From a virus: a stretch of DNA of 54,326 nucleotides. Each line of letters opens with the position of its first letter. Within the stretch, counting starts at the first letter, position 1. Both the position numbers and the translations under genes were made by a program. The DNA lies in IMG/VR virus record IMGVR_UViG_3300042876_000481, positions 1 to 54,326 of that record. One strand, given 5' to 3'. The notes under the pieces are model-generated. The model made no database searches, was not told the origin of the DNA, and was given only the letters and a program-made list of their open reading frames with translations. Shown piece after piece: positions 1-54,326 of this stretch.

Positions 1-81
1 CACTGCTACGCGCTGGCCGTCCGTCAAACCGTCGCCTGGGAGAAGGCGCAGAAGGCCAAAGCCAAGCAGGGGGCCAAATGA
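1..81 (+). CDS. C-terminal fragment of a small basic phage protein (cut by window edge)
   Basis: The reading frame is open from base 1 and ends at TGA 79-81, giving 26 residues with a Lys/Ala-rich tail. It is the 3' end of the gene seen whole at 54047-54274; the only difference is Gln here for Lys there. The stop overlaps the next start (ATGA). Function unknown. It is partial only because the contig was opened inside the gene. Confidence 0.8.
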   Translation, partial: HCYALAVRQTVAWEKAQKAKAKQGAK

Positions 82-133
82 ACAAGCCCACGCCCGCGGA
101 GCTCGCCCGCCTCGAGGAAGCCCGCGCCTCGGA
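1..133. repeat. Direct terminal repeat, left copy
   Basis: The first 133 bases match the last 133 bases of the window (54194-54326) with a single difference: C at 67 here, A at 54260 there. Repeated contig ends usually mean a circular or circularly permuted molecule. The repeat lies inside coding sequence, so it is more likely an assembly overlap than a functional terminal repeat. The mismatch changes one codon (CAG Gln against AAG Lys) and may be a population variant or a sequencing error. Confidence 0.9.
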
Positions 134-245
134 TGCCGCCTGGACTCGCGCGGTCGCCGCTGAGATCGCCCTGCGCATGCAGCACGCGCGCGCGGAGAAG
201 GCCGCGGCTCCTGCCGCTGCCGCCAACAACCACAACCGTTCCTGA
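78..245 (+). CDS. Small hypothetical phage protein (55 aa)
   Basis: ATG at 78 overlaps the previous stop (ATGA), so translation is probably coupled. The 55-residue product is rich in Ala, Glu and Arg, looks mostly helical and ends in a short Asn/His tail. No recognisable domain. A strong Shine-Dalgarno for the next gene (GGAGG) lies 8 bases after its stop. Real coding is supported by the tight packing in an uninterrupted run of small plus-strand genes. Confidence 0.6.
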   Translation: MNKPTPAELARLEEARASDAAWTRAVAAEIALRMQHARAEKAAAPAAAANNHNRS

Positions 246-260
246 TCCCTGGAGGTCGTC

Positions 261-563
261 ATGCCCGTTGCCACTTCTGCCCTCAATCTCGACGCCACGG
301 TCGACGCGCTCGGCGCTGAGATCGGCCGCCGTGCGTTGCTCACGTTCGTTCGCCTTGCGCCCGGGCTGTCGTCCCGCACGGACGAGCAGCTGCAGGCCGC
401 CTGCGACGCCATGAAGGCCGCTGTCCCTGGCGCGCTCGACCAGCTGCTAGCCGATGCCAAGGCCGCGCCTGCCCTGGCCCAGGTCGCCGCGGCCACCGCG
501 GTGCTCACGATCGCCCAGGCCGGTGTTGCCGCCCTCGGTCCTGCCGTGACGGAGGCCGCGTGA
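261..563 (+). CDS. Hypothetical Ala-rich phage protein (100 aa)
   Basis: ATG preceded by GGAGG at 251-255. The 100-residue product is Ala-rich and predicted helical, with a mildly hydrophobic C-terminal third (about residues 70-95), but no clear transmembrane segment or catalytic motif. It overlaps the next gene by 4 nt (GTGA). I do not recognise the family. Confidence 0.65.
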   Translation: MPVATSALNLDATVDALGAEIGRRALLTFVRLAPGLSSRTDEQLQAACDAMKAAVPGALDQLLADAKAAPALAQVAAATAVLTIAQAGVAALGPAVTEAA

Positions 564-751
564 AGCGCCTTGTGAAGTTCCAGGTCGACGCCCAGGTTTA
601 TCTGGCGTTCGTCTCGTACTCATCGGAGGAGGAGTTCCAGGAGTTGTTCGAGGGCCTTGTCATCCGCCGGTTCGGCTGCGATATCAGCGAGGTCGACGTC
701 ATCGGCTGGCAATCGTCGGACGAGTCGGCCTTCCTCGTAACTATCGGGTAA
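560..751 (+). CDS. Hypothetical phage protein (63 aa, GTG start)
   Basis: GTG start overlaps the upstream stop (GTGA), with GGAGG 4-8 bases upstream. The 63-residue product has alternating beta/alpha character and an acidic centre (SSEEEFQELF). It is the last gene of the first transcript segment; a new promoter begins 17 bases after its stop. Function unknown. Confidence 0.6.
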   Translation: MKRLVKFQVDAQVYLAFVSYSSEEEFQELFEGLVIRRFGCDISEVDVIGWQSSDESAFLVTIG

Positions 752-768
752 AAGCCTCGCTTTTCCTG

Positions 769-797
769 TTGACACACCCTAATTCTTAGGGTCATAT
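769..797 (+). promoter_or_regulatory. Repeated operator-promoter, copy 1
   Basis: TTGACA (769-774), a 17-bp spacer and TCATAT (792-797) form a sigma70-like promoter. The spacer carries a perfect palindrome, ACCCTAA-TTC-TTAGGGT (776-792), that also touches the -10 element. A downstream leader containing CTCACGCGCTGCGC is shared with copies at 1604 and 53576. The palindrome looks like a repressor or activator site; binding here would block RNA polymerase. Drives the genes from 843 on. Confidence 0.75.
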
Positions 798-842
798 CTG
801 TCTCACGCGCTGCGCGTTGCGGCGCCCACCCAGGAGGCTCGA

Positions 843-1040
843 ATGACCCACCGCCACCCGCACGAACAAGAAGACGACGATTTCTACTTCTCGGCTGCCG
901 ATCGTTTCGACGGCTTCGATCGCGGCGACCTCGACAACGTCGATCTCCTGACCGAGGACGAAGCGCCGGCCGATGCTGGTGCGCCCGCTTCTGTCCTGCC
1001 CATCGTTGCCGACCGCGACGACGACGTCATCACGTTCTAA
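843..1040 (+). CDS. Small highly acidic phage protein (65 aa)
   Basis: First gene after operator-promoter copy 1, with AGGAGG at 831-836. The 65-residue product has 19 Asp/Glu, no Lys and only four Arg, for a net charge of about -15, plus a His-rich N-terminus. Small acidic early phage proteins include DNA mimics that block restriction or host DNA-binding proteins, but this is analogy only; no family is recognised. A disordered partner-binding protein is equally possible. Confidence 0.65.
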   Translation: MTHRHPHEQEDDDFYFSAADRFDGFDRGDLDNVDLLTEDEAPADAGAPASVLPIVADRDDDVITF

Positions 1041-1050
1041 GGAGCCCGCC

Positions 1051-1305
1051 ATGCCGAAGCCCACCACCGCCTCGTCCCTGATGCAAGCCGCCGCGTGCGA
1101 CGCGGCCTATCGGGGCGTCCGTCACATCCCGGCTGGCGTTGACAAGGTCATCGCCGGCATCGCCGAGCGCCGCCTGAACGTGCCCACGCTGCTGGTGCGC
1201 GGTGGCGACTCGGTCGACTTCCACGAGGTCGGCGTCACGTCGCTGCGCATGGCCCTGGCCGAGGCCTATCTCGCCGGAATGATCGCCGGCCGCACTGCCG
1301 CCTGA
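1051..1305 (+). CDS. Hypothetical phage protein (84 aa)
   Basis: The in-frame ATG at 1051 is chosen over upstream starts because AAGGAG sits at 1039-1044 and the gene then begins just after the preceding stop. The product is mixed alpha/beta, with a C-terminal helix reaching AYLAGMIAG. No recognisable domain. It lies in a promoter-proximal run of small genes with good Shine-Dalgarno sites. Confidence 0.65.
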   Translation: MPKPTTASSLMQAAACDAAYRGVRHIPAGVDKVIAGIAERRLNVPTLLVRGGDSVDFHEVGVTSLRMALAEAYLAGMIAGRTAA

Positions 1306-1316
1306 AGGAGGCTCGA

Positions 1317-1574
1317 ATGTCCAAGCACACCCCTGGTCCCTGGTCCGTTCGCCGCGATCCCAACAGCACCACAGTCGAGGTGCGCAGCGCCAGCGGCCTC
1401 GTCGTCTGCGAGGTCGGCGACACGTCGCTCGAGGACGAGGTCAACGCGCAGGCGATCGCCGCCCTTCCCGCCCTGCTCTCGGCGATCGAGTACGCCGTGC
1501 AGTTCTCGGATGCGGATATCTCGCCCGTGATCCGCAAGCGGCTGCAGGCCGCGCTCGCCCAGGTGGCCGCCTGA
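1317..1574 (+). CDS. HTPGPW-type conserved phage hypothetical protein (85 aa)
   Basis: Starts 11 nt after the previous stop with GAAGGAGG upstream. The N-terminus MSKHTPGPWSV is typical of a widespread family of small phage proteins of unknown role. It is followed by a short beta region and a helical C-terminal half with an ALPALLSAIEYA segment. Its stop is followed by operator-promoter copy 2. Confidence 0.7.
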   Translation: MSKHTPGPWSVRRDPNSTTVEVRSASGLVVCEVGDTSLEDEVNAQAIAALPALLSAIEYAVQFSDADISPVIRKRLQAALAQVAA

Positions 1575-1603
1575 ACTGCCCGGGTTTTGCCTTGTTATTC
1601 GAC

Positions 1604-1632
1604 TTGACGCACCCTAATTCCTAGGGTCTTAT
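1604..1632 (+). promoter_or_regulatory. Repeated operator-promoter, copy 2
   Basis: TTGACG (1604-1609), a 17-bp spacer and TCTTAT (1627-1632). The spacer holds ACCCTAA-TTC-CTAGGGT (1611-1627), the same palindrome as copy 1 with one mismatched arm position. The leader again contains GTCTCACGCGCTGCGC before a GGAGG site and an ATG at 1677. Confidence 0.75.
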
Positions 1633-1676
1633 TCGTCTCACGCGCTGCGCACCGCGGCGCCCTTCTGGAGGCAAGC

Positions 1677-2069
1677 ATGAAACTCGGAACCGAAACCGGC
1701 AGCGTCGTGAACCACCTGATGTCCCGCGGGACGAATGGCGAGCCCGAGCCCGTGGTCGGCATGGGCTGCACGACGCTCTACTGGACCGATCGCAAGGCCT
1801 GCACGATCGTCGATGTGATCCCGGTCGGCTCGCGCTTGATCCTCGCCATCACCGAGGACAAGGCGGTGCGCGTCGACTCGAACGGCATGAGCGAATGCCA
1901 GGAGTACCGCTACGAGACGGACCCGCGCGGTGCTCGCATGCACTTCCGGAAGAACCGCAAGGGCTTGTGGCGCGGCGTGTGGAAGAACGAGGCCGGCCGC
2001 TGGGTCGAGTGCGATGGTCCCGGCCTGCAGATCGGCGTGCGCCGCGCGTACCACGACTTCTCGTTCTAA
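1677..2069 (+). CDS. Conserved phage hypothetical protein (130 aa)
   Basis: First gene after operator-promoter copy 2, with TGGAGG at 1666-1671. The 130-residue product looks beta-rich, with many aromatic and charged residues and short motifs such as GMGCTTLYWTDR and RKNRKGLWRGVW. The pattern is familiar from small unnamed phage proteins but I cannot assign a function. No signal peptide or membrane segment. Confidence 0.7.
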   Translation: MKLGTETGSVVNHLMSRGTNGEPEPVVGMGCTTLYWTDRKACTIVDVIPVGSRLILAITEDKAVRVDSNGMSECQEYRYETDPRGARMHFRKNRKGLWRGVWKNEAGRWVECDGPGLQIGVRRAYHDFSF

Positions 2070-2078
2070 GGAGGCGCC

Positions 2079-2270
2079 GTGCTGCTGTCCGAGATCCAGA
2101 TCGGCATGCGCGTGATGGTGGTCAACGGCGGCCGCCATCAAAACAGCGACGGGCTTGTCGCCGCGATCGCTAACGGCCGCGTCGGCGTCGACATCCGCAA
2201 GCGCCGCGCTCGTTACTGGTTCGCGCCGTCCGAACTGGCGCGCATCGTTCGAAGGAGCGAGCGTGGCTGA
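2079..2270 (+). CDS. Small hypothetical protein, KOW/SH3-like appearance (63 aa)
   Basis: GTG start with AAGGAGG 4-9 bases upstream. The sequence reads as a short beta-barrel-like domain (MRVMVVNGG, GLVAAIANGRVGVDIRKRRARYWF), with the glycine-spaced strands and final tryptophan seen in small SH3/KOW-type phage proteins. The fold suggestion is inference. It overlaps the GTG start of the next gene by 8 nt. Confidence 0.65.
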   Translation: MLLSEIQIGMRVMVVNGGRHQNSDGLVAAIANGRVGVDIRKRRARYWFAPSELARIVRRSERG

Positions 2271-2808
2271 CTGGCGCTGCCCTCGCTGTGACGCACCCAG
2301 GCCCTGGCAGCACGCGCCTGGGTGCGATGAAGACCCCGACTACGACGATTCCAAGGAGGCACAAATGTCCAAAACCCCCGCCCAACGTTGCGCGCTCGCC
2401 GCGCTGATCCGCATCGATCCGAAGCGCGCCGCGTGCTCGGATCAAGTCCGCGCATTGCTCGAGGACGAGCACCTGCGCCTCTACCTGGAGACCTGGGTCT
2501 ATCCGTTGCTCGAAAAGGCCGCGGGCATACCGATCAATCGCGACGTCCAGGATGACGCCGACGACGTTGTCGGGCGCGACATGCACGCCGCCCAGGTGGC
2601 CGGTGTCGTCGACATCGAGCCGTTCACGCTCGACGGTGAGGCTTGGCAGGTGCGCGTCGGCAAGGGTCCGGGTGCGCGCGTGCTGTCGCCCACGTGGAAC
2701 TCGCGCGGCGCGGCGATCGCGGGCGGGCAGGTGGAGGTGCGCCGGCTTGCCATGCGTGGCGAGCGCTTCAAGATCTCGACCGACCTGTCGAAGCCGGAGG
2801 CCGCATGA
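2263..2808 (+). CDS. Hypothetical protein with optional zinc-knuckle N-terminus, two possible starts
   Basis: Two starts in one open frame are each well supported. GTG 2263, after GAAGGAG, gives 181 residues beginning with a Cys-rich stretch (CPRCDAPRPWQHAPGC) that could bind zinc. ATG 2365, directly after AAGGAGG, gives 147 residues without it. The core has a helical first half and a later beta segment. Both forms may be made, or the first 34 codons may be a fused zinc-ribbon miniprotein. It ends in an ATGA overlap with the next gene. Function unknown. Confidence 0.65.
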   Translation: MADWRCPRCDAPRPWQHAPGCDEDPDYDDSKEAQMSKTPAQRCALAALIRIDPKRAACSDQVRALLEDEHLRLYLETWVYPLLEKAAGIPINRDVQDDADDVVGRDMHAAQVAGVVDIEPFTLDGEAWQVRVGKGPGARVLSPTWNSRGAAIAGGQVEVRRLAMRGERFKISTDLSKPEAA

Positions 2809-2978
2809 ACACCCTTGCTCGCGTCGGCCGCTCGGTTCGCGTGGTGCGCGACGACGGCTACCGGATCCAGCGGTTCCTCGAAATCCTGCGCAAGCACGGC
2901 ATGCACAACGTCCACGAGGCGCGCATTCGCCTGTCGGGCGCGATCCCTTCGTCCAACAAGCGGGAGCCTTCGCTGTGA
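2805..2978 (+). CDS. Small basic hypothetical protein (57 aa)
   Basis: ATG overlaps the previous stop (ATGA), with GGAGG just upstream. The 57-residue product is basic, with an amphipathic helix (YRIQRFLEILRKHGM) that could contact nucleic acid or a partner. No domain recognised. Its stop overlaps the GTG of the next gene, so this is part of a coupled run. Confidence 0.6.
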   Translation: MNTLARVGRSVRVVRDDGYRIQRFLEILRKHGMHNVHEARIRLSGAIPSSNKREPSL

Positions 2979-3223
2979 CCGCCCGCTCGAATCGCACGGA
3001 CGTCCGCAACCCGCTCACGCGCCTGCCGGCCGCGGTCAAGCTGCGCGCGCTTCCCGCGCCCGCGCGCGAGGCCTTGCGCGCTCTGCTGCGCGATCTGTCG
3101 GCCGATGCTCGTGCTCAGGCCGACAAGGCCTGGCGCTCGCACAAGGCGCCAATGGCGGCCTATTGGAAGGCCGCCGCTGTCTACTCGCGCCACGCGGCGC
3201 TGCTGCTCAAGGAGAAGCCATGA
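2975..3223 (+). CDS. Small basic helical hypothetical protein (82 aa, GTG start)
   Basis: GTG start coupled by GTGA to the gene before, with GGGAG upstream. The product is Arg/Ala-rich and predicted helical throughout (REALRALLRDLSADARA). It ends in an ATGA overlap with the following gene. Function unknown. Confidence 0.6.
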   Translation: MTARSNRTDVRNPLTRLPAAVKLRALPAPAREALRALLRDLSADARAQADKAWRSHKAPMAAYWKAAAVYSRHAALLLKEKP

Positions 3224-3513
3224 AACTGCAGCCTTTCATGTGGGTCGCCACCGGCATGCGCGCGGTCGATCGCGAGCACTTCGGCGTGGCCCAGTACTAC
3301 CGGGCCGATGACGTTGACGCGCGTATCGCGGCGCTTGATGGCGCGTTGCGCGATGCGCTTGACCACGTGCGCGACGGCCGGCTGCAATGGAACGAACTAG
3401 CCGGCCGCAGGCGCGGCGAAACAAGGCAGGCGCACGAGGATCGCCTTAGCGTGCACGTGCAGCGAAACGAAGATCGCCGCGAGCTAATCGAGCGCATCGA
3501 GGCCCTGCTATGA
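3220..3513 (+). CDS. Hypothetical helical protein (97 aa)
   Basis: The ATG at 3220 follows AAGGAG and overlaps the previous stop. After a short hydrophobic start (MKLQPFMWVATGM) the chain is charged and likely coiled-coil, with repeated Arg/Asp/Glu. It overlaps the next start by ATGA. Similar short helical proteins are common in early phage regions; no role can be given. Confidence 0.6.
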   Translation: MKLQPFMWVATGMRAVDREHFGVAQYYRADDVDARIAALDGALRDALDHVRDGRLQWNELAGRRRGETRQAHEDRLSVHVQRNEDRRELIERIEALL

Positions 3514-3830
3514 CCGTCGCCCTAAGCCCAAGCATTAGGCTGCGCACGCCGTCGCGCGGTGTCGTCCTGGTGATTCACGCGCCGCAGCCGGACACCCGCT
3601 TTTGGTGGTTCGCGCTCATGCGCGACGCGCGCAAGTTCGCCGATCCGTACCTGCTTCAGATGGTGTCGGATCTCGACCACCCGCCCAAGGTCGAAACGAA
3701 GTCCGACGGCACCTGCGCATTGCGCGTTCTTCATCGCGTGTGGCTGAATCTGGCCAGCGATGCCGAGGCCGACCGGGCTCGGGCCTTCATCGCCGAGTTC
3801 GACCCCGTCCTTCGCAAGGAGCCCGCATGA
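3510..3830 (+). CDS. Hypothetical phage protein (106 aa)
   Basis: Starts in an ATGA overlap. The 106-residue product is mixed alpha/beta with aromatic clusters (TRFWWFALMRDARKF). No recognisable catalytic motif. It ends in an ATGA overlap with the next gene, preceded by AAGGAG. Confidence 0.6.
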   Translation: MTVALSPSIRLRTPSRGVVLVIHAPQPDTRFWWFALMRDARKFADPYLLQMVSDLDHPPKVETKSDGTCALRVLHRVWLNLASDAEADRARAFIAEFDPVLRKEPA

Positions 3831-4096
3831 GCACGATCGCTTTCCGCCCTCGTCCCTGGCCGCGCGACCCGTCCGGCCGCCCGCTGATGGTGTCCGAACT
3901 CGACGCGCTCGAGTTCCGGCTACAGGTGGCGTCGGCCACCCAGGAGATGGTGCGGCAAATGTCGCCCGACCAGCGCGCCACGCTGATGGCCTCTGCTGCC
4001 CTGCAGCGGTCAGTCCGGGCCTCGGCGATCGGGCTGATGCTTGCCAGGAATGCCAACTATGCCGCCCGGCGCGCCTTGCGCTACCCTAAGACCTAG
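3827..4096 (+). CDS. Hypothetical phage protein (89 aa)
   Basis: The ATG at 3827 follows AAGGAG and overlaps the prior stop. The product has a Pro/Arg-rich N-terminus and a helical remainder with an Ala-rich segment. The last seven codons lie within operator-promoter copy 4, so binding at that operator could also affect readthrough from this gene. Function unknown. Confidence 0.6.
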   Translation: MSTIAFRPRPWPRDPSGRPLMVSELDALEFRLQVASATQEMVRQMSPDQRATLMASAALQRSVRASAIGLMLARNANYAARRALRYPKT

Positions 4097-4104
4097 GGTC
4101 TAAT
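4076..4104 (+). promoter_or_regulatory. Repeated operator-promoter, copy 4 (diverged -35)
   Basis: TTGCGC (4076-4081), a 17-bp spacer and TCTAAT (4099-4104) keep the geometry of the other copies. The palindrome is ACCCTAA-GAC-CTAGGGT (4083-4099). The -35 is weaker and the palindrome centre differs, but the arms are conserved. It sits over the end of the preceding gene and would drive the membrane/HTH genes from 4136. Confidence 0.65.
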
Positions 4105-4135
4105 CGGCCTGCCAAATCCAACAAGGAGGACAACC

Positions 4136-4345
4136 ATGGCAACCGCACCCCGCCCCGCAACCGCCCAGCGTCCGCTGCGCTCCGAGTACGACGTGTGCGA
4201 GGCCTTGAAGCCCCGCCGCAAGCTGCCCAACGTGGCCAACACCGCCCGCCAGCGGGCCGCCGAGTTCCTGGTCGGCTTCTCGGTCGGCAGCGCCCTGGGG
4301 CTCGCCCTGGGGGCCATCCTGGTGCTCGGCGTGGTGTCCCGGTGA
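4136..4345 (+). CDS. Small membrane protein (69 aa)
   Basis: ATG after AAGGAGG (4122-4128), just downstream of operator-promoter copy 4. A basic cytoplasmic N-terminal half is followed by one hydrophobic segment, FSVGSALGLALGAILVLGV, with small-residue (Gly/Ala) packing motifs. Probably a single-pass inner membrane protein. It is coupled by GTGA to a second small membrane protein. A role in superinfection exclusion or host membrane change is possible but not shown. Confidence 0.65.
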   Translation: MATAPRPATAQRPLRSEYDVCEALKPRRKLPNVANTARQRAAEFLVGFSVGSALGLALGAILVLGVVSR

Positions 4346-4470
4346 ACGCCGAGCACGACCCGCGTCCGCTCACGGTGTTCCCGCCACGCCGGCGCCATCG
4401 CTGGCCGTGGTTTCTCATCGGCGCGGTCGCGTACCTCGTCGCCCTGTACCTGATCGGAGTCCTGTCGTGA
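4342..4470 (+). CDS. Small membrane protein (42 aa, GTG start)
   Basis: GTG overlaps the previous stop (GTGA). The 42-residue product has a basic stretch (PPRRRHRW) followed by one transmembrane segment, WFLIGAVAYLVALYLIGVL, near the C-terminus. Positive-inside topology places the N-terminus in the cytoplasm. It ends in a GTGA overlap with the HTH gene. Probably acts with the adjacent 69-residue membrane protein. Confidence 0.6.
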   Translation: MNAEHDPRPLTVFPPRRRHRWPWFLIGAVAYLVALYLIGVLS

Positions 4471-4691
4471 GCACCAAGAACGAGGAAGCCCTGCGCGACC
4501 TCATGCAAAAGCACCACCTGACCTACGCCAACGTCGCCGCGCTCGCCGGCCGGTCGATCAAGACCGTCGAACGCTGGCTTGCGACGCCTGGCACGGTGAG
4601 CTTCTCGCCCATGCCGGATAACGCGCTGTCCCTGGTGCGCCTGTCCATCAACGCTCAGAAGAAGCCGCGCAAGGCGCGGCGGAAGGCTTGA
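4467..4691 (+). CDS. Small HTH DNA-binding protein (74 aa, GTG start)
   Basis: GTG start overlaps the upstream stop. A helix-turn-helix is visible at about residues 18-40 (LTYANVAALAGRSIKTVERW), with the A..AG.S..TVERW pattern of Cro/XRE-like or replication-initiator HTHs. A basic Lys/Arg tail follows. It lies in the transcript of operator-promoter copy 4, which makes it a candidate regulator of the four ACCCTAA palindromes; that link is inference. Confidence 0.65.
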   Translation: MSTKNEEALRDLMQKHHLTYANVAALAGRSIKTVERWLATPGTVSFSPMPDNALSLVRLSINAQKKPRKARRKA

Positions 4692-4694
4692 CCC

Positions 4695-5279
4695 GTGTGG
4701 ATTTACCTCAATGACGCCTTTGTTTCGATCGTCGCGCACCGCGAGAAGCGCGACCTCCTGTGCTGTCGCGGCCGCCTGCAGGGCGATCTGCAGCGCGCGT
4801 TCCGCGGCCACCTGAAGGGCCGCCGGGTCAAGCACACCCCGGGCGCCGACTACGCCTACCGGATCGAAATGCCGCGCGCGCTGGTGGCCAAGCTGCTAGC
4901 GCAGCAGGTGCGCGAGATCGACTACCCGAACTTCAAAGGATCGGTTCGGGATCCGGGCCGCGAGGCGCTGTACCTGCGCGTGTGGGGCGTGATGAAGTCC
5001 GAGCAGGACCGGCGCGAGCGCCAGGGCGGCACCGCGTCGCTGTTCGGGATCGTGCGCCCTGGCCGCATCCCGTCGCGCAACGCTGACGGGTTGCTCGAAT
5101 GCGGGCATTGCGAATACGAGGAGGCGGACGGGTCGCTGCGCATCCAGTGTTCTGCGTGCCAGCACGAGCAGGAGCTTGAGGAGGTGCAGCTGGGGCCGGA
5201 TCCGATCGTGAACAAGCCGGGCGAAAGCCTGGTCGAAACGGTCCGGCGCGCGCGGGCTAAACCTCGCGCTCGATCGTGA
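4695..5279 (+). CDS. Conserved phage hypothetical protein with CxxC pairs (194 aa)
   Basis: GTG at 4695 is the first codon; the protein begins MWIYLNDAFVSIVAHRE, a start recurring in small phage proteins of unknown role. The C-terminal half holds two Cys pairs (CGHCEYEE and CSACQHE), likely a zinc ribbon. Its last 23 bases overlap the end of the opposing minus-strand operon, and no intrinsic terminator is visible there. No catalytic motif seen. Confidence 0.7.
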   Translation: MWIYLNDAFVSIVAHREKRDLLCCRGRLQGDLQRAFRGHLKGRRVKHTPGADYAYRIEMPRALVAKLLAQQVREIDYPNFKGSVRDPGREALYLRVWGVMKSEQDRRERQGGTASLFGIVRPGRIPSRNADGLLECGHCEYEEADGSLRIQCSACQHEQELEEVQLGPDPIVNKPGESLVETVRRARAKPRARS

Positions 5280-5481
5280 TCCGGATCTTGGCGAAGACGT
5301 GCACCACCCGCTTGAGCTCCGGATCGAACACGTCCACCGGCATCCGAACGTCCACCCGGCTGGCGTAGATCGCGTTGCCGCGCGTGTCGGCGGCCCGGCC
5401 GCCGGTCCGCACGATCGCCTGGGCAGCCAGCGTCGCGATCTCGGCCGCGGTGTACTCGGCGAGCATCGCGGTGGTGATCAT
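5257..5481 (-). CDS. Hypothetical phage protein (74 aa)
   Basis: Last gene of the minus-strand operon containing portal and MuF. ATG at 5481 is coupled by TGATG to the gene before it. The product has a helical first half and a beta segment near the end (HVFAKIRITIERE). It overlaps the opposing plus-strand gene tail-to-tail by 23 nt. By position it may be a small virion or packaging factor; nothing in the sequence proves this. Confidence 0.6.
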   Translation of the reverse strand: MITTAMLAEYTAAEIATLAAQAIVRTGGRAADTRGNAIYASRVDVRMPVDVFDPELKRVVHVFAKIRITIEREV

Positions 5482-13771: not shown

Positions 13772-13956
13772 CAGAGGATCGGGGGTCGTTTCTCGCCGCT
13801 GTCGCGCACCGCATCCGGGCCGAGGACGATCGAAGCGATGAGCGCGCAGTTCGCCAGGGCGATCCAGTAGGGCGTCTCGGCTTGGATCGAGGCCACCATC
13901 AGCACCGTGGAAAGGATGCCGGCGGTGACCGCGGCCAGGATGCGGATGGCGGTCAT
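13771..13956 (-). CDS. Small two-pass membrane protein next to pilin (61 aa)
   Basis: ATG at 13956 overlaps the pilin stop (ATGA). The 61-residue product has two hydrophobic segments, about 5-24 ([20 protein letters not shown]) and 30-46 ([17 protein letters not shown]), and a charged tail. Probably an inner-membrane protein. Coupling to the pilin suggests joint expression; it could act on pilus assembly, exclusion or lysis, but the sequence does not decide. It is far shorter than TfpX/TfpZ-type pilin accessory proteins. Confidence 0.65.
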
Positions 13957-14369
13957 CGGCAGTTCGACGGGCGGTAATCGGCGACCAGCGTGCCGCCGCC
14001 GCATACCCAGGTGAGCGCGCCGGCCGTGCTGGTCGGCGTCAGGAGCACCGTGCCGCCGCCCGGGATGCGGGCCGCGTTGTATGTGATCGTGATCACGCCG
14101 GCCGCACCAACCGCGACGCTCGTGACGTCCGGGCCGGTGATCGTCGCCGGCAGGCCGGCATCGGCGTTCGTTGCCGGGAATGCGCCCTGCGACTGCAGCG
14201 TCTCGGCGACCGCGACCTTGGCCGCGCTTGCCAGGCTCAGGCCCTCGGTCACGCGCGCGCGGGCGGTGTATTGCTGGTACTGGGGAATCGCGACGGCCGC
14301 CAGGATGGCCACGATCGCCACGACGACCATCAGTTCGATCAGGGTGAAGCCTTGTGCGGTGCGTTTCAT
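13953..14369 (-). CDS. pilA: Type IV major pilin (PilA/PilE-like) encoded by the phage
   Basis: 138 residues with a class III leader: MKRTAQG cut by prepilin peptidase before [10 protein letters not shown], with conserved Glu5 of the mature chain, then a hydrophobic helix ([17 protein letters not shown]) and the spine region [17 protein letters not shown]. The C-terminus carries a two-Cys loop (WVC...SNCR), the usual D-region disulfide of type IVa pilins. Length, leader and Cys pair are intact, so it looks functional. GAGGAG lies before ATG 14369, and both ends overlap phage genes by 4 nt (ATGA). A host origin is likely; a role in changing host pili to block or redirect phage entry is inference. 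Confidence 0.9.
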
Positions 14370-14599
14370 GTGCTGCTCCTCTCGGGTGGCATCCGGGTGC
14401 CGGGCTGCCGGTCGGCTTTGCCCGTCAGGGCGTCGACGAGTTCGCGGTACCGGAACGGTTGCGCGTGCTCGCGCCAATCATCGAGCAGGGCCAGCGCGGC
14501 GGCAATTCGTCCGCGCAGATCAGCGGCCTCGGCGCGGTGGTCTACGCCGGTCACGTTCGGGCGGACGCCGACCATGTCCGGATGTTCGTCCCTTGCCAT
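14366..14599 (-). CDS. Hypothetical helical protein (77 aa)
   Basis: Starts in a TGATG overlap with the methyltransferase stop and ends in an ATGA overlap with the pilin start. The 77-residue product has a central helical stretch ([19 protein letters not shown]) and a polar C-terminus. It resembles small Rz1- or tail-unrelated phage fillers rather than a known family. Function unknown. Confidence 0.6.
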
Positions 14600-16050
14600 C
14601 AGACCCCCGCGAGCTCGTCAAATGGGCGGCCGTCACTTTCGCGCAACGCCTGGTCGCCAGTCCACCCTTGCCAGCGCCGAATAATCACGTCCGCGTAGAT
14701 CGGGTCCAGTTCGAGCACCCGGGCGCGCCGGCCGATGGCCTGGCAGGCGATCAGCGTGGTGCCGCTGCCCCCGAAGGGCTCGAATACCACATCACCGCGC
14801 CGGCTGCTGTTCTTCAGGTGCAGCTTCACGAGGCTCACCGGCTTCATGGTCGGGTGAAGTTCGGACCGCTTGGGCTTGGCCAGGCGGATCACCGTGCTGC
14901 CTTGCGCGTTGCGGTACTGGTTCACCAGGGCGATCAATTCCGGCTTGCCGAGTTGCTTGAGGTCCGGCTGTTCGTCGTCCTCGACGGTCGACTTGTCGCG
15001 CTCGCCGTACCAGCGGTGCGCCTCGCCGGGTTTCCACCCGTAGAGGATGGGCTCGTGCTGCCACTGGTAGTCCTGGCGCCCAAGCGTGAAGCCGTCCTTG
15101 ACCCACACAAGCGTCTGCTTCTGATCCCAGCCGGCGGCCTTCATGGCGGCCCGGAAGTTCAGGCCTTCGCTGTCGGCGTGCGCGATGTAGATCGGGCAGC
15201 CGGCCTTGGTGACTTCAAACGCGCAGCCGAAGGCGTCCGTGAGGAACTGCAAGAACTTCTCGCCGCTCATCGAGTCGTTTTGGATGGTGCGGCCGCTCGA
15301 ATCCTCGTATGCGACGTTGTACGGCGGGTCGGTCCAGACCATATCGGCGCGCTCGCCGGCCATCACCTTCTCGACGTCGGCCTGCCTGGTGCTGTCGCCA
15401 ACCAGCAGGCGGTGCTCGCCCAGGATCCACACCTCGCCAGCGCGCGAGACCGCGTCGAGTTGCGCCGGCGGGATGTCGTCATCGCCGGTGTTGCCTGTCT
15501 CCTCGACTTCCTGCGCGCCGTCGCTGCGGAGGTCGTCCAGCAGGGCGTCGAGTGCCGTGTCGCCCGTCTTGATGCCCTTGAGGAGGTCGTCCAGCATCGT
15601 TTGATCGGTGTCGGCTAGGCCGCCGATCGGGTCGATCGCCGCGAGCACGAGCTTCTCCTCGGCTTCGCTCAGGTCGACGTAAAGGACCGGCACGGCCGGC
15701 TCCTCGCGCCGCATGGCGAGCTCGACCCGCAGGTGCCCGTCGACCAGGTGCCCGGTGCGGCGGTTGATGATCACCCGCTGCACCCATCCGACCGTCTTGA
15801 GCAGGCCTTCGAGCGCGTCGGCCTGGTGCTTGGGGTGGCGCCGCCAGTTCAGCGGGTTCGCCAGGATCTGATCGGGCGCTTCGGTGCCCTCGCCGATGAT
15901 CCGGTCGCGGAACAGGCCTGCAGGCGTCTCGGGTTGCGCGGGCGCCGGAGGCGGTGTGCTCGCCTTCGCCGGCTTGGCCTTAGTTCCCTTTGCCTTGGTG
16001 GCTACCGCTTTGGCCTTTGGCCCGGCCTTGGGCTTGGTCTTTGTGGGCAT
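14599..16050 (-). CDS. ParB-domain/DNA methyltransferase fusion (483 aa)
   Basis: Residues 1-45 are a Lys/Ala/Pro-rich tail. Residues about 62-135 match a ParB/Srx N-terminal domain, including GHLVDGHLRVELA (100-112). The rest is an amino-methyltransferase with DPPY at 241-244 and the AdoMet site FEPFGGSGTT at 423-432. The catalytic motif precedes the AdoMet motif, the beta-class order, which usually methylates N6-adenine or N4-cytosine. The phage probably modifies its own DNA against restriction. ParB-MTase fusions are common in phages and mobile elements. Start choice is reasonable but lacks a strong Shine-Dalgarno. Confidence 0.9.
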   Translation of the reverse strand: MPTKTKPKAGPKAKAVATKAKGTKAKPAKASTPPPAPAQPETPAGLFRDRIIGEGTEAPDQILANPLNWRRHPKHQADALEGLLKTVGWVQRVIINRRTGHLVDGHLRVELAMRREEPAVPVLYVDLSEAEEKLVLAAIDPIGGLADTDQTMLDDLLKGIKTGDTALDALLDDLRSDGAQEVEETGNTGDDDIPPAQLDAVSRAGEVWILGEHRLLVGDSTRQADVEKVMAGERADMVWTDPPYNVAYEDSSGRTIQNDSMSGEKFLQFLTDAFGCAFEVTKAGCPIYIAHADSEGLNFRAAMKAAGWDQKQTLVWVKDGFTLGRQDYQWQHEPILYGWKPGEAHRWYGERDKSTVEDDEQPDLKQLGKPELIALVNQYRNAQGSTVIRLAKPKRSELHPTMKPVSLVKLHLKNSSRRGDVVFEPFGGSGTTLIACQAIGRRARVLELDPIYADVIIRRWQGWTGDQALRESDGRPFDELAGV

Positions 16051-20388: not shown

Positions 20389-21374
20389 GCGGGCACCTGG
20401 TCCCACGTGCGGCCGTCCAGCATGCGGCCGGCGGCGCGCTTGCCTGGCCGCCAGAGGAATGCCGAAACCTCGCCCAGCTTCGTGTCGGCCGGCAGCCGCT
20501 GCCCTCGTTCGTCGATCGCGCACATCTTGGTGGCGAGTTCGGACAGCGGCATCGGGTTGCTCTCGCTGATCGGAGCAAACTCGCCCCATTGCTTGAAGAA
20601 GAACGCCGCGCCTGCCTTGTCGCACTGATCGCGCAGGCTGCGCGCCCAATTCGGATTCATCGGCCTGGCCTTCGGTCCGCTCTCGCCGCCGACGATCACC
20701 CAGTGCACGCGCGGCGCGTCCAGGTGCGCGCGCCGCAGCACGTTGGCCGTGATGATCTCGTCGCCTTCGAATCGGCCGCCGCCGCCGCCGATCGGGATGC
20801 GCGTCAGGTCGACCGGCCCGAGCAGCGGCTCCATGCTGAGGAACCGCACGCGCGCCGGCACCGCGAGCAGCTTCGGGATGTCTCGTTCGGCTTCGGCCTG
20901 GTTCACGATCGTGGCACCGATCCAGACGTTGTCCCATGGCCATGATCCGATCGCGTCGCCGCCGGGCTCCATGTCGTCCAGGGCTTCGTCGATCATCTTG
21001 ATGGCGTTGCTGATGCGCTTTGTCAGCAGCAGCCAGTCGAGGTTCGGCGTGTTGCGGATCAGTTCGAACAATTCCGTGCGCCATGCGGGCGGTACTTCGT
21101 TATCGAACACGTCCGCAAGGCTCGCGCAGAACACGCGCGTGCGCCGGCCGCCGGAGGCCACCACGTTCGCGCTTTGCTTGTCCCACGCGAGCGGCTCGCG
21201 CCAGTAGGCCTCGCTGGTGCGCTTGCGCGGCGCGCCCGGCCCCCACTGCACCTGGTGCAGGCGCTTGTCCATCCGCGCCTCGGCGTAGCAGTTGTCGCAT
21301 CCGGGGCCGACCTTCGTGCACCCCATCCAGGGGTTGAACGTGTGATCGGTCCATTCGATGTTGCTGTTTTCCAT
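20385..21374 (-). CDS. Phage Gp37/Gp68 family protein (DUF5131)
   Basis: 329 residues. The N-terminal EWTDHTFNPWMGCTKVGPGC and CYAE signature gives Cys19, Cys26 and Cys29 (Cx6Cx2C), likely binding an iron-sulfur cluster in a radical-SAM-like fold. Later segments WLLLTKR, FLSMEPLLGP and WVIVGGESGP are typical of the family, common in phages and actinobacteria. The reaction is not established. It sits next to a Dam-type methylase, which raises nucleic acid modification or repair as an idea, not a conclusion. Confidence 0.85.
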   Translation of the reverse strand: MENSNIEWTDHTFNPWMGCTKVGPGCDNCYAEARMDKRLHQVQWGPGAPRKRTSEAYWREPLAWDKQSANVVASGGRRTRVFCASLADVFDNEVPPAWRTELFELIRNTPNLDWLLLTKRISNAIKMIDEALDDMEPGGDAIGSWPWDNVWIGATIVNQAEAERDIPKLLAVPARVRFLSMEPLLGPVDLTRIPIGGGGGRFEGDEIITANVLRRAHLDAPRVHWVIVGGESGPKARPMNPNWARSLRDQCDKAGAAFFFKQWGEFAPISESNPMPLSELATKMCAIDERGQRLPADTKLGEVSAFLWRPGKRAAGRMLDGRTWDQVPA

Positions 21375-22222
21375 CACGCTGCCTCGAAAAGGGAGCCCGT
21401 GTTGCCGTCTAGCGCGGCTCTGCAGGCGGGGTTGATCCACAGGACTTCGGTTCGTGTGCCGCCGCCGCGGCCGGCCGAGATCCGGGCTTGCATCGACGTG
21501 CTGTGCCAATCGGCCAGCCGGTCGGCGTAAAGGCGCGTCGGGTACCCGCTCACGACGACCATGCCCTTCAGCTTGCGCAGGGCGTCCAGCAGGTGCGCGT
21601 GCTCCTCGTCGGTCATCTCGTGCCGGTAGGTGCGGTTGCGCATGACGCGGGTCTCGTGCACGTAGGGCGGGTCGACGTAGTGCAGGGTGCGCGGCGTGTC
21701 GAAGGCCTGGAGGACGTCGATCGCCGGGCGGTGCTCGACCAGCACGCCTTGCATGCGCTGTCCTGCCACCCGGATCTGTTCCGGGTAGCGCTGCCAGTAC
21801 TGCGGTCCGCCGCCGTAGTCTCGGTCAACGTCGACTCGGAAGCCGGTGGTGCCCTTGCTCGCCCCGGCGCTGCCGAAGCCCATCATGGCCCGGATGGCGG
21901 TGCGCCTGGCGCGCTCGACCGGATCTTCGCTCGGCTGCCATGCCCACTCGAATTCCTCTCTGGCCCATGGCGTTAGCGCCAGCAGCGTCTCCAGCTGCTG
22001 CCGCTGGTCCGGCTCGCGCAGCACCCGGAAGAAGTTGACGATGTCGCCGTCGAGATCGTTGTAGACCTCGGCGGGCGCCCTGGGCTTCTGCAGGAGCACG
22101 CCGGCCGCGCCGCCGAATGCCTCGACGTAGAGCTCGTGCGGCGGGAAGTGCGAGAGCACCCAGCTGGCGATGCGGAACTTGCCGCCGTGATACCGGATGG
22201 CCGGCCTGGTGACGGTCGTCAC
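21374..22222 (-). CDS. DNA adenine methylase (Dam/D12 class)
   Basis: GTG start overlaps the upstream stop (GTGA). 282 residues with an N-terminal YHGGKFRIA, AdoMet motif VEAFGGAAGVL (33-43), YNDLDGDIVNFF and the catalytic DPPY at 184-187. This is the alpha-class D12 N6-adenine methylase order. It would protect phage DNA from restriction or mark it. With the ParB-fused enzyme this phage carries two DNA methyltransferases and no visible cognate restriction nuclease. Confidence 0.9.
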   Translation of the reverse strand: MTTVTRPAIRYHGGKFRIASWVLSHFPPHELYVEAFGGAAGVLLQKPRAPAEVYNDLDGDIVNFFRVLREPDQRQQLETLLALTPWAREEFEWAWQPSEDPVERARRTAIRAMMGFGSAGASKGTTGFRVDVDRDYGGGPQYWQRYPEQIRVAGQRMQGVLVEHRPAIDVLQAFDTPRTLHYVDPPYVHETRVMRNRTYRHEMTDEEHAHLLDALRKLKGMVVVSGYPTRLYADRLADWHSTSMQARISAGRGGGTRTEVLWINPACRAALDGNTGSLFEAA

Positions 22223-22590
22223 TTGGCTTTCCTCCGGTAGATGCGCACCGGGTGCGCGTGCGTTTGCGGGCTGGTCGCCTGCCAGTAGACCGCCTGGCCG
22301 TTCGCGTCCTTGATCGCTTCGATCAGGCCGCGGGCGATCGCCTTGCGGGGCAGCGAGCCCCACACCTTGTGCGAGGTCGGCGGGTCGATCACCTGCGGCA
22401 CTGCCCAGGCCCGGAAGGCCTCGATCGGGAAGGCCGCCGGCCCGAGCGCCTCGAGGTAGGCCTCGAGCGCGGTCATGCAGTCCGCCCACCACTTCTCGTC
22501 CTGGGCATCCGCTGCCTGCTGCTGCCCTTGTTCCTTGAGCGCCTGGCCGGTTCCGGCTGGCGCGGTCCAGTCGATTGCGATTTGTTGCAT
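22219..22590 (-). CDS. Hypothetical phage protein (123 aa)
   Basis: 123 residues. The central part (WWADCMTALEAYLEALGPA, WAVPQVIDPPTSHKVWGSL) and an Arg/Lys-rich end (VRIYRRKAK) suggest a small nucleic-acid-associated helical protein. Similar sequences appear in phage recombination or ninR-like regions as unnamed proteins. It ends in GTGA overlap with the methylase. Confidence 0.6.
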   Translation of the reverse strand: MQQIAIDWTAPAGTGQALKEQGQQQAADAQDEKWWADCMTALEAYLEALGPAAFPIEAFRAWAVPQVIDPPTSHKVWGSLPRKAIARGLIEAIKDANGQAVYWQATSPQTHAHPVRIYRRKAK

Positions 22591-25757: not shown

Positions 25758-26740
25758 GCTTCGCTCCGGATGCTGCCCAGGTAGGTCTGCAGGGCGTCGC
25801 CGGTCGCCCCGAGCTTGTCGGCCTGCCGCGCCGCGGTGGCCGTGGTTTGGCGGTTCGTCGCCCACTGCGTGCGCAGGCTCTCGGCGTCCTGCATCAGCAG
25901 CTTCGTGTGGTGCGTGTTCGCCACGTACTTGGCGCCCTTGTGCCCCAGGAACCAGGCGGCAATGTGCGGGGCCTCGGGTGCACCGACCCGCTTCACGAAC
26001 GCCAGGATGTTCGCGTTCGTCAGGGCGTTGCGGACGGGCTCCGTGCCGTACCGGGCCGCGTAGGCGGTCCTGTAGGCGTCCCAGGTGGCTGCGGCTGCCT
26101 CCTGGGCTTCGGTGCGCTCGACGGGCGCCTTCCTGGCCTTCCTCGTCGGTCGCGCTTGCGCGGCCGAAAGGGTCTTAACTACTGTCCCTGTCCCTGTCCC
26201 TGTCCCTGTCTTTATCCCTGTCCCTATCCCTGTCCCTTGGTGCACGTCGCGTGCATCGTCACGTTGATCGTCACGTTGATCGTCGCAATCCTCGTGCGCC
26301 TCGTCCGACATGGCTGGAGGGGCGTGTTTGGCCGCTTCTTTCGCTTTTCGGGCCGCAATAGCGGCCTCGACGCGGCGTTTCCGCTCGAGCTTGGCGCGCC
26401 ATGCTTCGAGCGCCTTCTCGGCGACCACCGGGTGGTACCAGCGGCCGTCGCTGCAGAGCACCCACCCGTTGAGGACGGTGTCGTCCGCTTCGGCCCACTG
26501 GTCGGGCGTGCAGAAGGCGAGGCGCGCCATCACCGCGGGGTTGTCCGGGACGCTGGCCGCGGGCACCTGGTGCCACGACGAGGCCCAAAGGCTGATCAGG
26601 GCGTGTCCCATGGGCGTGCCGGCGGCCTCGATCCACGTTTCGCTGGTGAGGAGCCTGGTGATGTCCAGGGGCATGAAAGGGAAATCACGAAGGTCGACCT
26701 CCGCTGGCACCAGCGGATCCGGCAGGGCTTGTTCGGTCAT
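25754..26740 (-). CDS. DUF1376 replication protein (lambda O-like role)
   Basis: 328 residues. The N-terminal 115 residues form DUF1376 (RDFPFMPLDITRLLTSETW, GHALISLWASSWHQVPAASV, GRWYHPVVAEKALEAW). A charged linker then leads to a Gly/Thr repeat (about 169-186) encoded by hexamers, and a helical C-terminal domain (about 205-328). DUF1376 proteins are phage replication initiator-like proteins. A repeat array inside an initiator gene is the layout of the lambda origin in gene O. Start overlaps the Cro-like gene by 4 nt. Confidence 0.8.
   Translation of the reverse strand: MTEQALPDPLVPAEVDLRDFPFMPLDITRLLTSETWIEAAGTPMGHALISLWASSWHQVPAASVPDNPAVMARLAFCTPDQWAEADDTVLNGWVLCSDGRWYHPVVAEKALEAWRAKLERKRRVEAAIAARKAKEAAKHAPPAMSDEAHEDCDDQRDDQRDDARDVHQGTGIGTGIKTGTGTGTGTVVKTLSAAQARPTRKARKAPVERTEAQEAAAATWDAYRTAYAARYGTEPVRNALTNANILAFVKRVGAPEAPHIAAWFLGHKGAKYVANTHHTKLLMQDAESLRTQWATNRQTTATAARQADKLGATGDALQTYLGSIRSEA
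26182..26235 (-). repeat. Nine tandem hexamers in the replication gene, candidate origin iterons
   Basis: Nine 6-bp units, consensus CTGTCC on the plus strand, run without gaps; four are variant (CTGTCT, TTATCC, CTATCC and the edge). They encode the Gly-Thr repeat of the DUF1376 protein. Regular tandem units in a phage initiator gene suggest initiator-binding sites, but simple slippage giving a low-complexity linker is also possible. Confidence 0.55.
26255..26286 (-). repeat. 12-bp direct repeat next to the hexamer array
   Basis: ATCGTCACGTTG occurs twice head to tail (26255-26266, 26267-26278) followed by a partial third copy (ATCGTCGC). It encodes the Asp/Gln/Arg repeat before the Gly-Thr stretch in the DUF1376 protein. 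Together with the hexamers it gives a compact repeat cluster of about 105 bp that could form an origin. Confidence 0.5.
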
Positions 26741-27042
26741 GCCGCCTCGCGCAGCAGCTGTTCCGCGCGGTCCAGAAGCCGGGCCGCTTCGATGCGCTTG
26801 TTGGCCTTGAGGATGTCGTCCGCCTTGATCTGGCCGTCCGTGGCGCGCTCGAGCGCCTGCGCGGCGGCTTCGGGCGTTACCAGGGCACCCTTGCGGTACT
26901 TACTGAGGTTGGCCAGGGGAATCCCGGCCTGGTAGGCGGCCTCTGTCAGGCTGCCGAGGATGTCGATCGCCCGGTAAACGGGCAGGTTGTAACCGAGTGC
27001 CGCCGCGGTGCTTTCGTCCCGCGCTCGGGTATGCCGTCGCAT
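26737..27042 (-). CDS. Cro/YdaS-like transcriptional regulator (101 aa)
   Basis: ATG at 27042 with GGAAAGG just upstream. 101 residues; the HTH reads AIDILGSLTEAAYQAG and IPLANLSKYRKGALVTPE (about 26-60), the pattern of YdaS/Cro-like phage regulators in which VTPEAAAQALERATDG follows. It is the first gene of the minus-strand operon and faces the bet operon across a 227-bp control region, so it probably regulates both directions. Confidence 0.75.
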   Translation of the reverse strand: MRRHTRARDESTAAALGYNLPVYRAIDILGSLTEAAYQAGIPLANLSKYRKGALVTPEAAAQALERATDGQIKADDILKANKRIEAARLLDRAEQLLREAA

Positions 27043-27269
27043 GGTTGCCTTTCCGGTTCGTGTTGGCTTGTTGCGCGGCGAATCGTACCGTAATTGCCGG
27101 CCGTAAGTGCAAGCCGACGCGTAGACTTTCCATTGCGCGGCGCGACAATCCGGCAACTAATCCCGATCGTCGTGTCTTTCTGTTGCGCGATGTTGCGCTT
27201 TGTCGCGTTCCTAGGTATCTTTCCGTCACCGCGGCAATCGACCGCGGGCAACCCTTACCTGGAGGTTCA
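27043..27269. promoter_or_regulatory. Divergent control region with repeated TTGCGC sites
   Basis: No gene fits this 227-bp stretch. TTGCGC occurs on the plus strand at 27071, 27133, 27183 and 27193, the last two spaced by exactly 10 bp. Around 27132-27149 the copy lies in an imperfect palindrome ATTGCGCG..GCGACAAT. A plus-strand promoter candidate is TTGCGC (27193-27198), 17-bp spacer, TATCTT (27216-27221), followed by GGAGG at 27261. The minus-strand promoter is less clear. The repeats are likely operators for the adjacent Cro-like protein. Confidence 0.6.
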
Positions 27270-28226
27270 ATGTCCACCGCTGTTGCTCCGCTGCAGGCGT
27301 CCGTGCCGGCCCTGCAAATGAACGAGACCGAACTCCTCGAGGTGCTCGGCTCGTCGCTGTACCCGGGCGCGAAGGTGCCCTCGATCAAGCTGGTCGTTGG
27401 CTACTGCAAGGCTGCCGGGCTCGACCCGATGCAGAAGCCCGTCCACATCGTGCCGATGTACGTCAAGGACGCCGGCACCGGGCAGGGCGCCATGCGCGAC
27501 GTCGTGATGCCTGGCATTGGGCTGTACCGCATCCAGGCCGCGCGCACCGGTCAGTACGCCGGCATCTCGGAGCCCGAGTTTGGGGCGATTCAGACCCTGC
27601 GCCTCGGCGACTTTTCGTTCGAGTACCCGGCCTGGTGCAAGGTCACCGTGCGCCGGTTCAATCCGCAGACCGGCCAGATCTTCGACTTCACCGCGATGGA
27701 GTACTGGATCGAGAACTACGCGACCAAGAGCCGCGATTCGAAGGTGCCCAACGACATGTGGCAGCGCCGGCCGTTCGCTCAAATCGCCAAGTGCGCGGAG
27801 GCGCAGGCCCTGCGCAAAGCGTTTCCGGAGACCGGCGCGCAGCCGACCGCCGAGGAGATGGAGGGGCGCGACTTCGACGGCGTCGACCTGAACCCCGCGC
27901 CTGCTCCTGCGCCCGCGCGCCAGGGCCCGCAATCGCGCGCTGCGAAGGCCAAGGCCGAGGCGCAGGACGCGACCGTGGTGTCGAAGGAGGACGCTGCCGC
28001 TGGTGCTGCCGTGGCCGAGGCTGCGCTCGATTCGATGGCCACCGCCGCGGCCACCGGCGCGACCGCTAACGATCCACTGGTCGGCGAGGGCGAGCTCGCG
28101 TTCCTGCGCAAGAAGGCCGAGCAGCTGAAGGTCGATCTGCCGGCCCTGGCCGCCGAGAAGGGCATCGATCTGTCGAAGCTGACGAAGGTCGGATTCGTGA
28201 TGCTCAAGGGCGCGCTCGCGTCATGA
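27270..28226 (+). CDS. bet: Bet-type single-strand annealing recombinase
   Basis: 318 residues. ATG follows GGAGG. Residues about 15-215 match the lambda Bet/RecT annealing core: LEVLGSSLYPGAKVPSI, LVVGYCKAAGLDPMQKPVHI, AMEYWIENYA, KCAEAQALRKAFPETGA. A Pro/Ala-rich linker leads to a short helical C-terminal module. It anneals single strands to mediate recombination and concatemer formation with the exonuclease and SSB encoded downstream. Start chosen by Shine-Dalgarno and by family length; the longer open frame upstream is non-coding control region. Confidence 0.9.
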   Translation: MSTAVAPLQASVPALQMNETELLEVLGSSLYPGAKVPSIKLVVGYCKAAGLDPMQKPVHIVPMYVKDAGTGQGAMRDVVMPGIGLYRIQAARTGQYAGISEPEFGAIQTLRLGDFSFEYPAWCKVTVRRFNPQTGQIFDFTAMEYWIENYATKSRDSKVPNDMWQRRPFAQIAKCAEAQALRKAFPETGAQPTAEEMEGRDFDGVDLNPAPAPAPARQGPQSRAAKAKAEAQDATVVSKEDAAAGAAVAEAALDSMATAAATGATANDPLVGEGELAFLRKKAEQLKVDLPALAAEKGIDLSKLTKVGFVMLKGALAS

Positions 28227-53575: not shown

Positions 53576-53604
53576 TTGACGCCCCCTAATTCCTAGGGTG
53601 ATAT
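53576..53604 (+). promoter_or_regulatory. Repeated operator-promoter, copy 3 (cassette start)
   Basis: TTGACG (53576-53581), a 17-bp spacer and TGATAT (53599-53604), with CCCCTAA-TTC-CTAGGGT (53583-53599) embedded. The leader CCCACGCGCTGCG is shared with copies 1 and 2. It is the first promoter of the plus-strand cassette and reads away from the protease gene across the contig junction. The 215-bp gap 53438-53652 holds nothing else I can support; no clear minus-strand promoter was found. Confidence 0.75.
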
Positions 53605-53652
53605 CTGTCCCACGCGCTGCGTTTCGACGGCGCCACCCTTGAGGACTGACAA

Positions 53653-53817
53653 ATGCCACTCTTCTCCGCTCTCCTGGTTCGCTCGGTTGCCGGTCGCGCG
53701 CCTGGGCAAATGATCGACGTGCTCGGTCGCATCAACGACGCCACGTACCGCGTGCGCTTCGCGGACGGCTTCGAGGCTGAGGTGTCGGCCTTCTCGTTCC
53801 TGAAGCAGGGGGTCTAA
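53653..53817 (+). CDS. Small hypothetical protein (54 aa)
   Basis: First gene after operator-promoter copy 3; GAGGA stands 8-12 bases before ATG 53653. The frame of 54 codons ends at TAA 53815-53817. The product reads as a small beta-barrel (LLVRSVAGRAPGQMIDVLGR, YRVRFADGFEAEVSAF), like SH3/Tudor-type phage miniproteins. Function unknown. Confidence 0.65.
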   Translation: MPLFSALLVRSVAGRAPGQMIDVLGRINDATYRVRFADGFEAEVSAFSFLKQGV

Positions 53818-54046: not shown

Positions 54047-54274
54047 ATGGCCACCAAGCTCACGAAGGAAGTCCGCCGCTCGGCGACCGGCCTTGGCGTC
54101 AACCGCCGGCCGTTCGTGGTGACGCTGGCGCCCGGGGATGTGATCGGGTTCCGCGACGCCAAGACGCGCCGCACCTACTGGACGACGCTGCAGCACTGCT
54201 ACGCGCTGGCCGTCCGTCAAACCGTCGCCTGGGAGAAGGCGCAGAAGGCCAAAGCCAAGAAGGGGGCCAAATGA
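54047..54274 (+). CDS. Small basic phage protein, full copy (75 aa)
   Basis: ATG at 54047; an in-frame GTG at 54038 overlapping the previous stop (GTGA) is an equally plausible start adding three residues. Beta-rich middle (FVVTLAPGDVIGFRDAKTRR) and a Lys/Ala tail. It is the complete version of the fragment at positions 1-81. Function unknown. Confidence 0.65.
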   Translation: MATKLTKEVRRSATGLGVNRRPFVVTLAPGDVIGFRDAKTRRTYWTTLQHCYALAVRQTVAWEKAQKAKAKKGAK

Positions 54275-54326
54275 ACAAGCCCACGCCCGCGGAGCTCGCC
54301 CGCCTCGAGGAAGCCCGCGCCTCGGA
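54194..54326. repeat. Direct terminal repeat, right copy
   Basis: Right-hand partner of the repeat at positions 1-133, identical except for one base (A54260 against C67). It covers the end of one small gene and the start of the next, which allows the two partial genes at the left edge to be completed across the junction. Confidence 0.9.
54271..54326 (+). CDS. 5' fragment of the 55-aa gene (continues at window start)
   Basis: ATG in an ATGA overlap with the previous gene; the frame is cut by the window end. It is identical to the beginning of the gene at 78-245, reached by closing the contig ends. Confidence 0.8.
   Translation, partial: MNKPTPAELARLEEARAS

Follow-up and report, generated by a model that had tools for sequence, protein, structure and literature searches.

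The window analysed here, the whole 54,326-nt stretch of a virus record, carries genes for tail proteins, terminase, portal, head protease, major head protein, RecT and an exonuclease; at the DNA level it has almost no similarity to named phages, none of which is a near relative. Its last 133 bp (54194-54326) repeat its first 133 bp (1-133) with one mismatch, which would fit a genome that is circular or terminally redundant. The minus strand carries a gene for a type IV pilin-like protein (13953-14369; phrog_3433 pilin, E 2e-11), possibly a superinfection or surface-modification gene, and two DNA methyltransferase genes (14599-16050 and 21374-22492), the product of the former having a ParB-like N-terminal part.

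Four proposed promoter-operator copies

Four putative promoters on the plus strand share one architecture, in which a -35 box is followed by a 17-bp spacer occupied by the palindrome ACCCTAA-N3-YTAGGGT, whose final T also opens the proposed -10 box in every copy. The copy at 53576-53604, which separates the first early gene from the divergent head protease gene, has TTGACG (53576-53581), the palindrome at 53583-53599 and the proposed -10 box TGATAT (53599-53604). The copy at 769-797 consists of TTGACA (769-774), a perfect palindrome (776-792) and TCATAT (792-797), and that at 1604-1632 of TTGACG (1604-1609), the palindrome (1611-1627) and TCTTAT (1627-1632). The fourth copy, at 4076-4104, is the nearest to a gene for a helix-turn-helix (HTH) protein and overlaps the 3' end of the ORF at 3827-4096; it comprises TTGCGC (4076-4081), the palindrome (4083-4099) and TCTAAT (4099-4104).

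When the 54 kb were searched for the palindrome at up to one mismatch, just four loci were found, all of them the copies above (the one at 53583 carrying a single mismatch, CCCC..), compared with a mean of 0.00 in 100 dinucleotide-preserving shuffles. At up to three mismatches, no copy was found between 4.1 kb and 53.5 kb of the window. The proposed -10 boxes are weak and have no A at position 2, which explains why a standard sigma-70 scan of 1-5300 detected none of the three copies there. The four sites are assigned as promoters on the strength of their -35 boxes and spacing, the leader that three of them share, and the better -10 boxes of relatives. The leader CACGCGCTGCG follows the copies at 53576 (53611-53621), 769 (804-814) and 1604 (1639-1649) on the plus strand and is absent after copy 4076. 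The three leader-bearing copies show 60-64% pairwise identity over 121 bp, and copy 4076 is 37-39% identical to them over the same length.

An earlier note on this DNA had described four promoters with embedded palindromes, three of them with a common leader, and these observations are all borne out. It had also called the sites dispersed, which does not hold: since the ends of the window repeat each other, the copies form, on the closed genome, one rightward block of about 5 kb with small genes, in the order 53576, end/1, 769, 1604 and 4076.

The early genes behind these copies all lie on the plus strand. The first ORF behind copy 53576 encodes 54 aa (53653-53817), and three ORFs with no assigned function follow copy 769 (843-1040; 1051-1305, phrog_2555; 1317-1574, phrog_1273). 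Copy 1604 precedes the ORFs at 1677-3830, the first of which (1677-2069) is a widespread phage early gene with no function assigned. Behind copy 4076 lie an ORF of 69 aa with a hydrophobic C-terminal segment (4136-4345), the HTH gene (4467-4691) and, directly after it, an ORF at 4695-5279, relatives of which likewise follow the HTH gene in the related phages G014 and G015. The subset of early ORFs that was scanned gave no match to anti-CRISPR families, and most anti-CRISPRs have no family model.

The HTH protein at 4467-4691

The proposed repressor of the four promoters is a 74-aa protein with a GTG start codon and weak matches to Cro/CI-type families. Its AlphaFold model (mean pLDDT 82) contains the helices of an HTH fold. 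Foldseek comparison of this model gave Aca1 on palindromic DNA as the best match, a weak one (E 0.2), and comparison of the HTH profile A2 with the PDB ranked Aca3 first, also weakly (E = 0.0049 over residues 9-62). Because the Aca1 structure score and the Aca3 profile score are each weak alone, we designate the protein Aca-like in its mode of action and not a member of the Aca group. Two Aca features are present, namely a small protein with an HTH fold and an inverted repeat in its own core promoter (the spacer palindrome at 4083-4099 upstream of the HTH gene, with counterparts in relatives). For Aca proteins, the inverted repeat lay within the core promoter in every case (PMC9410906), and these proteins are thought to block polymerase recruitment (PMC8434428).

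Like Aca1, Aca2, Aca3 and Aca10 (PMC9410906, PMC8434428, PMC9410881), this small HTH protein is encoded in the phage unit that it would regulate, with an inverted repeat in the core promoter and a polymerase-blocking autorepression that is proposed for those systems and predicted here. Unlike in those systems, no anti-CRISPR gene was recognised among the early ORFs scanned and the operator sequence is another one; moreover, the Aca autorepressors act on one acr-aca promoter, whereas in this phage one regulator would act on four promoters over about 5 kb.

Conservation of the operator and the recognition helix

No viral relatives were recovered with the single HTH sequence as query. Relatives were present in four phages first retrieved via their terminase (G014, G015, G018 and G021); a five-sequence profile fetched further contigs from the viral collection, and a ten-sequence profile added a few. 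In all four phages, the promoter that separates the early operon from the divergent head protease gene contains a palindrome of the same class as those in the window. Across relatives the operator follows CCCTRM-N3-KYAGGG and is located in the promoter that precedes the HTH gene; the promoters read TTGCGC-ACCCTACTGCGTAGGGG-TACGGT in G015, TTGCGC-ATCCTACTGAGTAGGGC-TAGTGT in G014, TTGCCA-CCCTGCACCGTAGGGCA-TATGAT in G018 and TTGTCTGC-ACCCTGCGCCGCAGGGT-TATAGT in G021. The spacer is 17 bp in the window and in most relatives, and the inner bases of the palindrome mostly covary on both arms in these four phages, paired changes that a site recognised by a symmetric dimer should show. Most of the profile-fetched contigs (L111, L117, L119, L120, L134 and the G021 group) have a site upstream of the HTH gene; no close site was found in the HTH contigs L114 and L129.

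Ten distinct HTH contigs (235 kb including the window) contained 15 sites, 12 of them with a correctly placed TTG, and at least one operator site was found in nine of the ten. In 499 kb of other phages there were two sites, none with a correctly placed TTG, and simulated sequence gave a mean of 0.45 TTG-placed sites. Because the site pattern was derived from the window and four of the ten contigs, the clean test is provided by L111, L117, L119, L120 and L134. Conservation of the palindrome in related phages, on which the earlier note had made its proposal depend, was thus checked, and the palindrome class is kept where the HTH protein is present; occurrence of the HTH relatives alongside the same operator class also speaks for this protein as the regulator, one of the two candidates named in that note. 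A separate scan of viral contigs for TTGAC-N3-CCCTAA-N3-YTAGGG returned nine contigs, by a rough estimate about the chance level for the size of the collection, and these were therefore excluded as support.

The relatives compared have one main operator, with a second near the HTH gene in G015 and G021; this phage has four, two of which bear the shared leader and fall within an expanded early region. The arrangement could be explained simply by the gain of further early genes, placed downstream of copies of this promoter-operator. In G015 (L078, near 2680-2700) and in the G021 group (L108, near 386-400), the -35 box is immediately preceded by another element, TAGGGTTTG(C/T)CC, possibly an extra half-site.

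Alignment of ten HTH proteins revealed S30, K32, V34, E35 and W37 as invariant in all of them. The residue before W37 is R in the window, with half-sites CCCTA(A/G); it is S in G014, G015, L111 and L119, with half-sites mostly CCCTAC, and G in G018, G021, L117, L120 and L134, with half-sites mostly CCCTGC. Between S and G the difference is modest (p = 0.013 by half-sites and 0.048 by contigs), and shared ancestry, for which it is uncorrected, weakens it.

A stronger test comes from distant HTH proteins of Lachnospiraceae. Those with the helix SxKT[V/I]ERW have a CCCT palindrome in a 17-bp promoter spacer at six of six loci (for example TTGACA-17-TATTAT), and the palindrome occurs at 0 of 11 loci with other helices (p = 8e-5, with helix classes defined after the data were seen). 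Upstream of the HTH gene lie two CCCT palindromes 33 bp apart, the second of which sits in the promoter spacer; such pairs are found next to HTH/HipA-like kinase genes at L121, L122, L124, L142-L146 and L156, where we take the ORF downstream of the HTH gene to be a HipA-like kinase from reading the ORF itself and not from a family library. In the three first-seen Lachnospiraceae genomes, CCCTNA-N3-TNAGGG has four matches in 2.8-3.1 Mb, two of which are this pair. The likeness of these loci (L121, L122, L142-L146 and L156) to the phage lies in the helix and in the CCCT palindrome within a 17-bp spacer, whereas their protein is larger, their setting is a bacterial HTH-kinase operon and their sites are paired at 33 bp, with kinship in the HTH alone. 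Streptomyces hits (L123 and L125) were set aside, as they had no site with a correctly placed TTG.

A predicted autorepressor of early transcription

At the level of sequence, the sites, their placement, the conserved pair of HTH protein and operator, and the operator changes that track the recognition helix are established; from these we infer binding, dimerisation, repression and timing as follows. It is likely that the four palindromes are operators of the HTH protein at 4467-4691, which would close early transcription at four promoters as an autorepressor with the logic of Aca proteins. The earlier proposal that a single regulator controls the four sites and brings about an early shut-off is well supported by the co-occurrence of HTH relatives and the operator class. 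Binding is probably by a dimer in which each recognition helix contacts one CCCTA half-site. Since the palindrome occupies the place where RNA polymerase binds, a bound dimer would block the promoter, and the repressor and the host RNA polymerase that is expected to read these promoters would compete for the same DNA. At an early stage of infection the four promoters would be active and give rise to the small early proteins and the HTH protein. As the HTH gene lies in the unit behind copy 4076, its product would repress itself together with the other units; its rising level would cover the four promoters, its own included, and turn early transcription off. The result would be a shut-off soon after infection by a protein made from the same gene region.

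A similar layout is known from archaeal viruses, in which many small early genes, proposed to be anti-defence genes, share one regulatory sequence (PMC11065993). The viruses with Aca8 resemble this phage in that copies of one regulatory sequence precede many small early genes, the gene for a small HTH regulator included, and differ in their archaeal promoters, an unrelated regulator and proven anti-defence genes among the early genes. The mycobacteriophage repressor with its stoperators (PMC9283540) is likewise one phage repressor with several sites per genome; stoperators, however, are asymmetric and genome-wide, can stop elongation and serve immunity, whereas the sites described here are dyads in the promoter spacers of one early region.

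Phage immunity regions, too, have several operators controlled by one repressor, and a repressor that maintains the prophage, whether the Cro/CI-like protein at 26737-27042 or the HTH protein at 4467, might silence the early genes in a lysogen, a reading favoured by the two tyrosine recombinases of the relative G025 (locus L120). We regard it as unlikely, because the regulated early unit itself contains the HTH gene, an arrangement better suited to a self-limiting shut-off than to stable lysogeny, and because a search of the window for integrases of the tyrosine class found none. For the Cro-like protein, the second candidate of the earlier note, no relative was found in the compared phages and no copy of the palindrome nearby, even at up to three mismatches, so that the CI-type layout of operators beside the repressor gene is not seen there, and this candidate is not supported. 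The Cro-like gene is divergent from RecT (26737-27272), and in the gap GCGCGACAA (at about 27140) and TTTGTCGCG (at about 27200) may form an operator pair of their own.

MerR-type activators also bind the promoter spacer, and the weak -10 boxes of the window would suit promoters that are activated in this fashion by the HTH protein or another spacer-binding protein. The promoters of such activators, however, have spacers of 19-20 bp, compared with 17 bp here and in most relatives, and an activator on which its own early promoter depended would not be available at infection. With the closest solved relatives, Aca1 and Aca3, being repressors (PMC8434428, PMC9410906), activation seems very improbable. 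Slightly less probable still is that a host regulator reads the palindrome. An early-promoter palindrome could exploit a host factor, but in the phages compared the operator accompanies the phage HTH gene, and differences in its bases parallel those in the HTH helix. Hairpin promoters, which are linked with N4-type virion polymerases, were dropped in view of the -35 boxes present, no very large polymerase-like ORF having been seen.

On the autorepressor model, an HTH family without prior characterisation gains a candidate operator, target genes and a testable protein-DNA code. A bolder reading, which we consider less likely than not, is that the four operators mark an anti-defence regulon, whose early genes would be mostly inhibitors of host defence, and that a helix code SxKTVExW, which would read CCCT with x tuning the inner bases, might find such regulons in other phages. 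Repeated regulatory sequences have already served as bait in archaeal viruses (PMC11065993), and the present analysis suggests that repeated self-repressed promoters could flag anti-defence candidates in bacterial phages by sequence alone.

The palindrome was absent from the relatives sharing gene 1677-2069 (L016-L047 records, e.g. G003, G005, G006, G008 and G010); this absence was rejected as a refutation, as no significant HTH relative was found in those examined. These phages without a recognisable HTH relative have other palindromes in comparable early promoters, phage-specific and often in 2-4 copies: GTTGACA-N3-TGTCAAC in G006, TCTAAC-N5-GTTAGA in G008, CCTGCCC-N3-GGGCAGG in G010 and TCTTAG-N4-CTAAGA in G005. 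A self-repressed early region with several promoters and a phage-specific operator may therefore be common among phages, the CCCT family being the only one tested. Other small HTH proteins are encoded by G001, G003 and G010.
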